64,000 nt of DNA from Bacteroidota bacterium. Lineage in GTDB: Bacteria > Bacteroidota > Bacteroidia > JABDFU01. Below, piece after piece: positions 21,320 through 61,786 of the stretch. Under the pieces are notes generated by a model. The model saw only the letters and a program-made list of their open reading frames with translations. It was not told where the DNA came from and searched no databases. How positions within the stretch are numbered: the stretch's first letter is position 1; the number at the start of each line of letters is the position of its first letter. The translations under genes were made by a program, and so were the position numbers. Where the stretch lies: assembly GCA_016183775.1 (NCBI GenBank), contig JACPDY010000014.1, forward strand, positions 1 to 64,000, given 5' to 3'.

Positions 21320-21385
21320 GTTCCGGGTTCCGGGTTCAAAGTTCCAGGTTGTCCACAATCTAACTTTGAACCCGGAACCCGGAAC
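21320..21385. repeat. Heptad-periodic inverted repeat, nuoC-nuoD gap
   Basis: 24-bp perfect arms (21320-21343 and 21362-21385) with an 18-nt loop. The left arm is built on the unit GTTCCGG, with GTT at arm positions 1, 8, 15 and 22. The element begins 5 bp after nuoC and ends 9 bp before nuoD. Confidence 0.92.
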
Positions 21386-21393
21386 CCCAAAAG

Positions 21394-22678: not shown

Positions 22679-23218
22679 ATGGCTACTAAACAAATAAAAT
22701 TTTCTGATGATGCGTATGAATTAGTACAGCGCATCATAAAGCGTTACCCGGAAGGGAAGCAGAAATCAGCTATACTTCCTGTACTGCATATTGCGCAAGC
22801 GGAGTTTGATGGCTGGCTAAGTGCGCCCGTGATGGATTACGTAGCGTCTATTTTAAGTATTCAGCCCATTGAAGTATACGAAGTGGCTTCATTTTACAGC
22901 ATGTTCAATTTAAAACCTGTTGGAAAATGTCTGATCGAAGTTTGTCGTACCGGACCATGTTGGTTAATGGGGGCCGAGGACGTAGTAAAATATATTGAGA
23001 AGAAATTGAATATAAAGGAAGGCGAAACCTCAAAGGACGGAATGTTTACTTTAAAAACAGTTGAATGCCTTGCCGCATGCGGCTCTGCGCCGATGATGCA
23101 GGTTGGGGAGACGTACCATGAGAATTTAACACTTGAAAAAGTCGATTCAATTTTACAGGATTATAAATCGAAAGGCGAATTGGTAACACATTGGGATAAA
23201 AAGCATATAAAAAAGTAG
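22679..23218 (+). CDS. nuoE: NADH-quinone oxidoreductase subunit E
   Basis: 179 residues of the 24-kDa thioredoxin-like subunit. It binds a [2Fe-2S] cluster with ligands in CRTGPCWLMG and ECLAACGSAP. It works with NuoF in the NADH-oxidising tip. The stop codon overlaps the first base of the following inverted repeat. Confidence 0.96.
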   Translation: MATKQIKFSDDAYELVQRIIKRYPEGKQKSAILPVLHIAQAEFDGWLSAPVMDYVASILSIQPIEVYEVASFYSMFNLKPVGKCLIEVCRTGPCWLMGAEDVVKYIEKKLNIKEGETSKDGMFTLKTVECLAACGSAPMMQVGETYHENLTLEKVDSILQDYKSKGELVTHWDKKHIKK

Positions 23219-23270
23219 TTGTTGGTTGTTAGTTGTCGGTTCTTGGAACTAACAACTAACAACCAACAAC
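23218..23270. repeat. Heptad-periodic inverted repeat, nuoE-nuoF gap
   Basis: 19-bp perfect arms (23218-23236 and 23252-23270) with a 15-nt loop. The left arm starts GTTGTTGGTTGTTAG, with GTT at positions 1, 8 and 15 as well as between. It fills the gap from the nuoE stop to 9 bp before nuoF. Confidence 0.9.
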
Positions 23271-23278
23271 TGGCAACT

Positions 23279-24612: not shown

Positions 24613-24665
24613 GGTTTTGGGTTTCAAGTTTCAGGTTGCCAACCTGAAACTTGAAACCCAAAACC
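24613..24665. repeat. Heptad-periodic inverted repeat, nuoF-nuoG gap
   Basis: 26-bp perfect arms (24613-24638 and 24640-24665) around a single C. The left arm has GTT at positions 2, 9, 16 and 23, with units such as GGTTTCA. It begins 2 bp after the nuoF stop. Confidence 0.93.
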
Positions 24666-24680
24666 TGAAAACATTTAAAA

Positions 24681-38975: not shown

Positions 38976-39227
38976 TTGGCATCCTTATCCGTTCCGGATG
39001 ACACAATTTTTATATCCTTGAATAAGATCCTTCTATACTTTAGTTTTTTCATGATAGCTGTCTATATCGGCATCGGACTCATCCTTATTTTTTCTACCCT
39101 GTTCTTAAATATAGTTTCTGATAACCGCATCTTGCTGGGGATAGTATTTATTATTTATGCCGGTTTTCGTATTATTCTGACAATACAGCGTATTAGGAAA
39201 TTAAATCAACATCAAGCGCATTCATGA
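38976..39227 (+). CDS. Small membrane protein of unknown function in the tonB cluster
   Basis: 83 residues from a TTG start, with two predicted membrane helices (ILLYFSFFMIAVYIGIGLIL and ILLGIVFIIYAGFRIILTI) and a basic tail. No family is recognised, but a similarly placed small membrane gene is common between tonB and the phosphate-binding gene in Bacteroidota. Its stop overlaps the next start by 4 bp (ATGA), supporting a real, coupled gene. Confidence 0.7.
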   Translation: MASLSVPDDTIFISLNKILLYFSFFMIAVYIGIGLILIFSTLFLNIVSDNRILLGIVFIIYAGFRIILTIQRIRKLNQHQAHS

Positions 39228-40165
39228 TGAGAATCCCCGCCCCTTTCCTTCGGCCTTCTTACTTCTTATTTCTTACTTGCCTGGCTTCTTGCATAAACCC
39301 TCCCGGCATGAAGGAGCCGACCGATACAGCTACTTCGGGGGATGTAAATATTGTAATTGATGAATCATATACATTGTTGTTTGATACTGAAATTCACACT
39401 TTTCAGTCACTTTATGTGAATGCAAAAGTGCATGCTAGGTATCTTCCTGAAGATGATGCGATAATCGCGCTCATGAACGACTCGGCCAAAGTAGCGGTGA
39501 TCAACAGGCCGCTGAAGGAAGAAGAAAAAAAGAATTTCGGGGCGAAGAATATTTTTCCAATTGAAACAAAGATTGCCGAGGATGCTATTGCTTTTGTAGT
39601 TAACACCGAAAACCCTGATACGAACATTAAGTTTGAAGAAATTGCCCGGATAATGGCAGGTATTGATACAACATGGAAGCAGGTAAATGAAAAATCAACC
39701 ACTGGTGGAATAAGAATAATTTTTGACAATCCTAATTCGGCCAACGCAAGGTACATTGCAAACTTTTCAAAGCAGGCGCAGCTGCCTAAAAATGCATACG
39801 CGGTTAAGTCGAATGCAGAAGTGATCGAATATGTAAATAACAACAAGAACGCGATAGGTGTTGTAAGTGTAAATTGGATAAGTGACAAAGATGATAGCAC
39901 AACTATTGGTTTTTTAAAGAAGATCAAGGTGTTGGGCATTAGCAAAGCCGGAAACACCGAAAAATACTATAAGCCTTACCAGGCTTATATAAAAACGAAG
40001 GATTATCCCTTTTGCAGGGATGTTTATATGATCAATCGCCAAACCAGGGCCGGGCTTGGCATGGGGTTTGTATCATTTGTGGCAGGAGAGAAGGGGCAGC
40101 GTATTATATTAAAAATGGGACTTGTTCCATCAATTGCTCCGACGCGGATGGTGGAGATACATTAA
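39224..40165 (+). CDS. PstS-like periplasmic substrate-binding lipoprotein
   Basis: 313 residues. The signal peptide ends in the lipobox LASC, so it is membrane-anchored. The PstS-like fold is shown by MNDSAKVAVINRPLKEEE, NAIGVVSVNWISD and the C-terminal VSFVAGEKGQRIILKMGLVP. Family members bind phosphate for ABC uptake, but no Pst ABC genes are nearby. In the tonB cluster of Bacteroidota this gene may instead serve a sensing or envelope role. Confidence 0.88.
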   Translation: MMRIPAPFLRPSYFLFLTCLASCINPPGMKEPTDTATSGDVNIVIDESYTLLFDTEIHTFQSLYVNAKVHARYLPEDDAIIALMNDSAKVAVINRPLKEEEKKNFGAKNIFPIETKIAEDAIAFVVNTENPDTNIKFEEIARIMAGIDTTWKQVNEKSTTGGIRIIFDNPNSANARYIANFSKQAQLPKNAYAVKSNAEVIEYVNNNKNAIGVVSVNWISDKDDSTTIGFLKKIKVLGISKAGNTEKYYKPYQAYIKTKDYPFCRDVYMINRQTRAGLGMGFVSFVAGEKGQRIILKMGLVPSIAPTRMVEIH

Positions 40166-46475: not shown

Positions 46476-46970
46476 TCACCCTCCCTTTATCTTCTTCTCA
46501 ATCGCACTTGTAGAATACCCTTTCACCAGCTCGATCAGTTTCACTTCTCCGCCATTTGCAAGCACTATATCGTGCCCTGCAATTTGGTTCACTTTGTAAT
46601 CGGCGCCTTTAACCAATACATCTGGTTGTATCAGTTTTATTAATTCATAAGGAGTTTCTTCGTCAAACACACATACTATATCCACAAAATGTAAGGCTGC
46701 AATTATTGTTGCACGCGATGTCTGATCCTGAATTGGACGGTTGGCTCCTTTGTTTAACAGTTGCACTGAGCTGTCGCTGTTAACGCCAACGATCAATATA
46801 TTTCCGCAATCAGCGGCTTTGCTTAAATAATCAATATGGCCGAGGTGTAACAGATCAAAGCAGCCATTAGTGAAAACAATTTTCCTGCTTTTCAATCTGT
46901 GATGTGCCAATGCCGGCCCTAATGATTCACGGGTTAGTATGCGGTTCTTTATTACTTCAAGCTTTTGCAT
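46476..46970 (-). CDS. rfaE2: D-glycero-beta-D-manno-heptose 1-phosphate adenylyltransferase (RfaE2 type)
   Basis: 164 residues of the cytidylyltransferase-like fold with TNGCFDLLHLGHIDYLSKA (HLGH nucleotide site) and a C-terminal GYSTSAIEKKIK, the ISTT-like closing motif. It should activate heptose phosphate with ATP for lipopolysaccharide core. It is the stand-alone C-terminal half of HldE; the kinase half is not in this window. It lies downstream of the flippase-like gene, separated by an inverted repeat. Confidence 0.88.
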   Translation of the reverse strand: MQKLEVIKNRILTRESLGPALAHHRLKSRKIVFTNGCFDLLHLGHIDYLSKAADCGNILIVGVNSDSSVQLLNKGANRPIQDQTSRATIIAALHFVDIVCVFDEETPYELIKLIQPDVLVKGADYKVNQIAGHDIVLANGGEVKLIELVKGYSTSAIEKKIKGG

Positions 46971-46987
46971 TTTTTGTTTTGATTTCG

Positions 46988-47041
46988 GGTTTCAGGTTTC
47001 AGGTTGAGTTTGGTTAAACCGCCAACTTGAAACCTGAAACC
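46988..47041. repeat. Heptad-periodic inverted repeat between rfaE2 and the flippase-like gene
   Basis: 19-bp arms (46988-47006 and 47023-47041) pair with one mismatch. The left arm is GGTTTCAGGTTTCAGGTTG, with GTT at positions 2, 9 and 16. It has the same unit as the nuoF-nuoG and nuoM-nuoN elements, although this region is read on the minus strand. Confidence 0.9.
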
Positions 47042-47046
47042 TTTTC

Positions 47047-48433: not shown

Positions 48434-48485
48434 AGCACAACAAAACTAAGTATTAAATAAGAAGTAAGAAGTGAGAGAGCAGAAT

Positions 48486-49496
48486 TTATTTTAAAATAAC
48501 ATTATCGATCAGCCTCACCTGGCCTACTCTTACCGCAATACAAGCCACTGCACTTTCGGCTTTATCCAGGTTAAGCACAGGTTGCAATGTTCTGGCATCC
48601 GCTATTTGAAAATATTCCAGTTCTGTAAGTGAGCTTTCAGCGATCTCACTTTCAACAAGCATGGTAAGTTCATCAACAGATAATTTATCGGCTAATTTCT
48701 GTACGGTAAACAATGTCTGCGAAATAATGCAGGCTACTGCCCGTTCAGAAGGGGTTAAACGAATGTTGCGTGAGCTCATAGCAAGTCCGTCCGGCTCACG
48801 GACAATCGGGCAGGTAACAATTTGTACCCCATAATTAAGCTGCCGGACCATTTCCTTAATGATGGTTTGTTGCTGAAAATCTTTTTGTCCGAAATAGGCC
48901 CTGTCGGGGTTAACAATATCAAGCAGTTTGCTTACAACCTGTATCACTCCTTCAAAATGACCGGGCCGGCGGGTGCCTTCCATTACTTTATCGAGGTCGC
49001 CTAAGTTTACCTGTAAATACCGATTGTCAGATTTGAGACTGGTTTGCCGGCGCTGAAACTGTGTGTCGGCGGGCAGGTTTTGGACAGTAGTACCAACAAT
49101 TCCCATATCCGTATTACCAATTCCCTCTCTCACCTTTCGCCCTTCGTCCCTCGTCTCTTTCTTCACGTCCCTTGTCTCTCCGCCTTCCGGGTATATTTCC
49201 TTTTCCCCTGGAACAAACAATACATCACAGCCTGTTTTTTCAAGAAGTACTTTATCTGCTTCAATTGGTCTCGGGTATTTTTCCAGATCACTTTTATCAT
49301 TGAACTGGGTTGGATTAACAAAAATGCTGCAAACCGTCACATCATTTTCGGCCTTTGAGCGTTCAATAAGGGAAATATGACCTTTATGTAAGGCTCCCAT
49401 GGTTGGAACAAAGCCAATAGTATGACCTTTTTTACGCTGCTCGGTCAGGTGCCTCTCCAGATCGGTTTTTTTCTCAAAAACAAGCATTGGTATCAC
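48486..49496 (-). CDS. panC: Pantothenate synthetase with a 57-residue in-frame insertion
   Basis: 336 residues, while the family norm is about 280. Motifs are GFVPTMGALHKGHISLIERS (HIGH-like), NPTQFN, FGQKDFQQ and SSRN. Between IYPEG and VNLGDLDKVMEG, close together in ordinary PanC, 49011-49181 adds 57 residues rich in Arg, Glu, Thr and Gln. Removing it gives 279 residues. Part of the insert DNA is a 7-nt-periodic tract like the nuo gap repeats. The enzyme joins pantoate and beta-alanine; an insert on a surface loop could be tolerated. Confidence 0.94.
   Translation of the reverse strand: MIPMLVFEKKTDLERHLTEQRKKGHTIGFVPTMGALHKGHISLIERSKAENDVTVCSIFVNPTQFNDKSDLEKYPRPIEADKVLLEKTGCDVLFVPGEKEIYPEGGETRDVKKETRDEGRKVREGIGNTDMGIVGTTVQNLPADTQFQRRQTSLKSDNRYLQVNLGDLDKVMEGTRRPGHFEGVIQVVSKLLDIVNPDRAYFGQKDFQQQTIIKEMVRQLNYGVQIVTCPIVREPDGLAMSSRNIRLTPSERAVACIISQTLFTVQKLADKLSVDELTMLVESEIAESSLTELEYFQIADARTLQPVLNLDKAESAVACIAVRVGQVRLIDNVILK
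49011..49181. repeat. 171-bp in-frame insertion in panC containing a heptad tract
   Basis: On the minus strand, 49181 down to about 49125 reads as 7-nt units such as AAGGGAC, GAGGGAC, GAAGGGC and GAAAGGT in register. The rest (49011-49124) has no clear second arm. The length is a multiple of three and no stop arises in the panC frame. Confidence 0.85.
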
Positions 49497-61489: not shown

Positions 61490-61786
61490 AAAATATATAA
61501 TTTAAATATTCCTACTCTCTTTAAGGCTTTTCGGTTTCCGCCATGATCGCTAAACCAATAAAATACCAAATGCAATTATTTTTTTTAATTGGTTTATATT
61601 ATTCAGGTACAGCGAATTGCTTTTGTCAAAAAAAACAAATTCGATTTCATACAATTTGTGTTTTGTAGAATTAAAGCCTCGTTTCGAGTAAAATATTGCT
61701 ATTCAATTATAAAACCCGTCGTATAAATAAAAGAATCCTCCCGGCTTTTTTATTTGTAAGCGTCTTTGTTTTAAAGTATTCAGCTT

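Follow-up and report, generated by a model that had tools for sequence, protein, structure and literature searches.

The panC gene in the window, the 64,000-nt stretch of a Bacteroidota genome (G000) analyzed here, contains a 57-codon in-frame extension of one loop, part of which is a tandem array of degenerate 7-nt units. Alignments and substitution patterns indicate that the extension is lineage-specific and that it is translated and maintained as protein. Arrays of this kind are abundant in the genome, both in gene gaps and in frame within other core genes. We favor, with modest confidence, the explanation that the PanC insert is the product of a genome-wide process that spreads heptads, together with slippage, selection having kept those in-frame tracts that are tolerated.

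The loop extension of PanC

For panC, the gene of a vitamin-B5 enzyme, a start at the ATG at position 49487 is likelier than one at the GTG and gives 333 codons. The protein matches the Pfam domain Pantoate_ligase (PF02569) along the whole profile (positions 2-268 of 268), and the motifs common to all aligned PanC proteins (MGALHxGH, NPTQF, GQKDFQQ, and SSRN) are retained; with its full-length domain and catalytic motifs, the protein belongs to the PanC family. The spacing between EIYP and LGDLDKVMEG is 61 residues, compared with about 9 in most Bacteroidia and about 24 in some. An earlier sequence-only reading of this DNA had described PanC as 57 residues too long, with 279 residues remaining once the insert is removed. 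This is right in outline, and in outline only, since the loop already measures about 24 residues within the genus (G005).

The same reading counted about eight in-register 7-nt units that keep the frame. The frame is indeed kept and there are nine units (coding strand: GGAGAGA, CAAGGGA, CGTGAAG, AAAGAGA, CGAGGGA, CGAAGGG, CGAAAGG, TGAGAGA, and GGGAATT), but they account only for the first 63 coding nucleotides of the 171-nt insert, the remaining 108 nt being non-heptad. The heptad tract is translated as the 7-residue repeats ETRDVKK/ETRDEGR/KVREGIG, and the insert encodes the peptide stretch NTDMGIVGTTVQNLPADTQFQR. The period-7 signal of the whole insert was reached by 0 of 2,000 dinucleotide shuffles. 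For the 66-nt purine-rich part of the G000 insert alone, 13 of 2,000 shuffles reached it, a moderately significant result that reflects the degeneracy of this copy; the homologous tract of the sister species G004 is much cleaner (0/2,000). Chance composition was rejected on the basis of the full insert and of the G004 tract.

No hairpin was found in the insert, where the best inverted repeat scores 6, and an Rfam search revealed no known RNA family there. The insert may contain a weak copy of a short dispersed palindrome (Table 1). Its palindrome score was reached by none of 500 shuffles in G000, which is significant, and by 59 of 500 in G004, which is not. For the origin of the non-heptad majority of the insert, this weak match is the one clue.

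Table 1. Coordinates of panC, its loop extension, and heptad arrays in the window.
Feature	Position	Strand	Remark
panC (pantoate-beta-alanine ligase)	48486..49496	-	336 codons from GTG
In-frame loop extension of PanC, 57 codons, lineage-specific	49011..49181	-	Shared with G004; lacking in G005 and in 27 other Bacteroidia PanC proteins
Degenerate heptad array in the PanC insert, 9 units, AGGGACG family (ACGAGGG unit)	49119..49181	-	Exceeds the G004 tract by 21 nt
Non-heptad part of the extension (NTDMGIVGTTVQNLPADTQFQRRQTSLKSDNRYLQ)	49011..49118	-	dN/dS 0.07, G000 versus G004
Tentative degenerate copy of a short dispersed palindrome (CCTGCCTGCCGAAGC..TTTC.GCGCAGG) in the PanC insert	49047..49077	-	Weak match
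Heptad array, AAGTAAG family, panD-panC gap	48447..48476	+	Unrelated sequence in the G004 gap
Heptad hairpin GTTCCGG / CCGGAAC, between two genes	21320..21387	.	
Heptad hairpin GTTGTTA / ACAACTA, between two genes	23218..23278	.	
Heptad hairpin GGGTTTCAAGTTTCAGGTT / AACCTGAAACTTGAAACCC, between two genes	24613..24670	.	
Heptad hairpin TTTCAGG / AACCTGA, between two genes	46963..47042	.	
Heptad array, CTTCTTA family, coding the hydrophobic segment of a lipoprotein-like signal peptide (MMRIPAPFLRPSYFLFLTCLASC)	39247..39278	+	

Six genomes, all from a single genus, represent the order of the source genome, and the relatives are incomplete MAGs, so that gain and loss are polarized only coarsely; at this resolution, the insert is real and lineage-specific and appears to have arisen in the lineage of G000 and G004. 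In G004, whose PanC is 91% identical, the same extension is present with a heptad tract exactly 21 nt, or three units and seven codons, shorter. In G005, a member of the same genus with a PanC about 60% identical over a long match, the loop has 24 residues and no heptads, and the insert is likewise absent from the other Bacteroidia PanC proteins compared. It is thus neither ancient nor widely conserved, which supports the sequence-only reading on this point.

Between G000 and G004, dN/dS is 0.07 for the rest of PanC, the same as for the non-heptad half of the insert, and 0.20 for the heptad part, the latter based on about 45 aligned sites. The non-heptad half evolves like the rest of the gene, which indicates that in both species the insert is read as protein and under constraint. 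A PanC of another Bacteroidia lineage (L010 5254-6222, on the same contig as G107) carries an unrelated long insert at the same loop, indicating that the site, whose location in a loop is derived from alignments, tolerates changes in length.

Heptad arrays in genes and gaps

The abundance of heptad arrays in the genome was assessed in a 0.99 Mb sample (22% of the genome) with ORFs called by a simple greedy procedure. Period-7 arrays numbered 79, whereas a third-order Markov control had 1; periods 5, 6, and 8-11 yielded 1-8 arrays each, and periods 14 and 21 were harmonics. Among 70 separate arrays, pairs with an identical unit numbered 56, compared with 3.5 expected and a maximum of 14 in 2,000 draws. 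The main units were AAACCTG, ACGAGGG (the PanC family), AAAGTTC, AACCCGG, AACCGAT, and AACAACC, and heptad families were common to genes and gaps. Inside ORFs, which cover 90% of the sequence by the greedy call, lay 41 of 88 arrays. Heptad arrays are therefore depleted from genes, yet genes are not closed to them, and nearly half of the arrays are coding. Separately, the window contains at 122-2381 a long CRISPR-like tandem array with a period of 76-77 nt and constant and variable parts, as well as an Rfam DUF805b cis-regulatory RNA (61509-61544, minus strand, 47.8 bits).

The exact AGGGACG-family pattern was found in 10 of 395 Bacteroidia genomes, belonging to several families, where the backwards control patterns had hardly any matches, and also in contigs classified as viral. 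The pattern AAACCTGAAACCTGAAACCTG, which represents a rarer family, occurred in G000 and in 1 of 98 other genomes. In the genome G006, 43 and 25 matches to the backwards control corresponded to another type of G-rich heptad array. At L163 12729-12925, a 197-nt TCTCATA/TCCCACA array has its variants ordered along its length, as slippage predicts. The dispersed palindrome that may have a weak copy in the PanC insert (CCTGCCTGCCGAAGC..TTT.GCGTAGGCAGG, about 30 nt) was found at L178 6990-7130, at L175 9540-9640, in L162, and in FolC and IspG of G004; in some cases it lies within a heptad array and is translated.

The suggestion that heptad elements are more than terminators is borne out by the many arrays that lie in frame inside essential-type genes. 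These include PriA, ValS, a BioA-type aminotransferase, IspG, LysA, BshC, FolC, TsaB, AroE, CtaA, a SpoU-type methyltransferase, and others; ten families were confirmed by Pfam, whereas PriA, SpoU, and the rest were named by sequence motifs. Inverted-repeat heptad arms are present inside PriA and IspG. In sense, the units of arrays within ORFs were stop-free in 31 of 38 cases; the figures were 19 of 38 for antisense and 36 of 66 for strands of intergenic arrays (Fisher p 0.006-0.007). Because 7 = 1 mod 3, each of the three reading frames of an array yields the same seven codons; a stop-free unit is therefore open in any phase, and steps of three units (21 nt) are frame-neutral. This equivalence of frames is a simple candidate reason for the survival of heptads in genes.

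Predicted signal peptides, too, have hydrophobic segments coded by heptad arrays (FLRPSYFLFLTCLASC, HISIFISAFLLLTSYLFSQS), at window positions 39224-40165 and at L140 3563-4942, L175 9499-10485, and L178 6979-7956, and such repeats may have been co-opted as secretion signals. In SprB-like repeat proteins (L139, L146, L150, L132, and L164), heptad-coded peptides (GSGFQVSGL, TSQISNLTSQI) occupy the same position in paralogous domains, and the heptad families differ between paralogues.

Within the genus, an orthologous loop could contain native sequence, a heptad array of a different family, or the same family in inverted orientation. The BioA loop carries CAGGTTT in G000 and AAATCTC in G004; the ValS loop, AAGAATT in G000 and AAAGTTC in G002; and the TsaB loop, GTTCAAA plus TCCCTCG in G000 and a GATCACC-type array in G003. 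In AroE, the AGAGACG strand of G000 is matched by the opposite strand, CTCGTCC, in G004. In the PriA insert, which is absent in G002 and G003, the right arm and the total length (109 nt) are kept and the left units are AGGGACG versus GAAGTCG. Of 36 scorable aligned loops, 8 also carried a period-7 array (0.25 expected), usually of another family, which indicates that loops are re-used or arrays replaced. A bulk comparison of G000 with G004 yielded few informative pairs, and paralogous SprB-like repeats confounded it. The earlier proposal that these elements move thus stands insofar as arrays are gained and replaced, given the recurrent units and the different families at orthologous loops; a discrete movable element is unsupported.

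Possible origins of the insert

In the explanation that we favor, a genome-wide process would keep generating degenerate 7-nt tandem tracts from a small common repertoire of units. New sites would be seeded most likely by the copying of short heptad tracts from elsewhere, through template switching or short-homology recombination. The evidence for this seeding step is the common unit repertoire, although a polymerase bias toward certain heptads would also yield recurrent units. Seeded tracts would then lengthen and shorten by slippage, and selection would clear most of those that hit genes. Survivors in coding sequence would be tracts in length-tolerant loops or termini, with a stop-free strand and a frame-keeping length, and an established loop would behave as ordinary protein under purifying selection. 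Coding arrays do lie in length-variable segments, with the bias toward stop-free sense units noted above. More speculatively, and with considerable doubt on our part, tolerant loops of core enzymes might act as exchangeable slots, overwritten by still-active heptad copying with interchangeable 7-nt cassettes, a process that would generate diversity in loops and signal peptides.

An unlikely but serious alternative is pure local replication slippage, in which an array grows from a chance local doublet and, as hypothesized in the literature (PMC4692102, PMC4679880), the polymerase footprint favors 7 nt. The three-unit length step in PanC, the dominance of period 7 over all neighboring periods, and a weak period-7 excess in other Bacteroidia agree with it. 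However, slippage alone would not lead one to expect units drawn from a common repertoire far above chance, the recurrence of one unit in distant families with hardly any matches to its backwards control, or the presence in relatives of a different family, or of the opposite strand, at a given loop. We regard as improbable that heptad and palindrome cassettes transpose as small non-autonomous elements and land in frame as Rickettsia palindromic elements do. Transposition would account for the dispersal, and the heptad-palindrome-heptad composites (FolC and IspG of G004, L175, L178), the inverted arms in PriA and IspG, and the replacement of families at fixed loops point in this direction. It also predicts common ends, but a search of the genome for a donor returned no second copy of the PanC insert (the best other matches were 24-32 nt of generic heptad, E at least 0.015), and neither ends nor a target duplication were definable. 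Moreover, only the 7-nt unit is common among arrays, their lengths vary continuously, and in G004 the palindrome match of PanC falls short of significance. The non-heptad part makes up about two thirds of the insert, and growth or shrinkage by three units fits slippage rather than transposition.

Inverted repeats of at least 14 bp involve 32% of intergenic arrays compared with 6% of control gaps, and four hairpins lie in gene gaps of the window, as would be expected if the arrays were terminators, RNA-processing hairpins, or protein-binding sites whose coding copies are kept for that role. We nevertheless consider such a function very unlikely for the insert: PanC and most coding arrays lack a hairpin (an inverted repeat of at least 14 bp in 2 of 33, versus 0 of 80 controls), neither sequence nor family is conserved at orthologous places, and the heptad arrays of the window had no Rfam match. 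An assembly artifact or chance composition, which the purine-rich and degenerate tract of G000 might suggest, is barely credible, as the insert was assembled independently in two MAGs (G000 and G004), is made of clean heptads in G004, and evolves under constraint.

Comparison with known repeat systems

Among the longer simple repeats of many bacteria, heptamers are the most common class, and no explanation for them is generally accepted. With in-frame arrays in internal loops of PanC, PriA, ValS, FolC, AroE, TsaB, IspG, and other proteins, and with different families at one loop in sister species, two questions become testable: by what route heptad tracts arrive at new sites, and to what extent new protein segments come from non-coding repeats.

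Repeats in frame within housekeeping genes find their closest analogy in the Rickettsia palindromic elements, which lie in frame in many such genes and are tolerated as extra peptide. These elements are palindromic, measure roughly 100-150 bp, and have a family-wide consensus. The arrays described here resemble them as in-frame insertions in conserved genes that are absent in orthologues. Unlike them, they are tandem heptads with no common ends and no full-length consensus; the PanC insert itself has no palindromic structure and no other copy in the genome.

The over-representation of heptamer repeats in bacteria, 7-nt indels, and the hypothesis of slippage set by the polymerase footprint have been published (PMC4692102, PMC4679880; both cite Mrazek 2007). 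Known heptameric SSRs include GGGAATC in Xanthomonas and GGGGA(C/T)T in Nostoc, among them the cyanobacterial short tandemly repeated sequences (PMC4692102). The present arrays share with them degenerate 7-nt tandem units that exceed chance, many dispersed loci in one genome, occurrence in gene gaps, some inverted-repeat arrangements, and variation in length and sequence between close relatives, including a unit-step change of 21 nt in panC, although indels in other arrays are mixed. Whereas those SSRs consist of one G-rich family per genome and are under-represented in coding sequence, here many families coexist, and ORFs contain nearly half of the arrays, with core enzymes carrying them in frame. 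Direct repeats of TAACTGA occur in Beggiatoaceae, Cyanobacteria, and five Bacteroidetes; translated copies are found chiefly at the ends of proteins and in hypothetical proteins, and one case is reported in a surface loop of an RNA polymerase beta-prime-like protein (PMC4679880). Our arrays are similarly heptad, patchy across phyla, subject to 7-nt indels, and translated only in the stop-free orientation. In contrast to the TAACTGA repeats, which are mostly intergenic before start codons, they occupy internal loops of about 15 known proteins, and their families are replaced between species. Heptamer repeats as such are known, and their in-frame colonization of core enzymes in this genome is an extreme variant.
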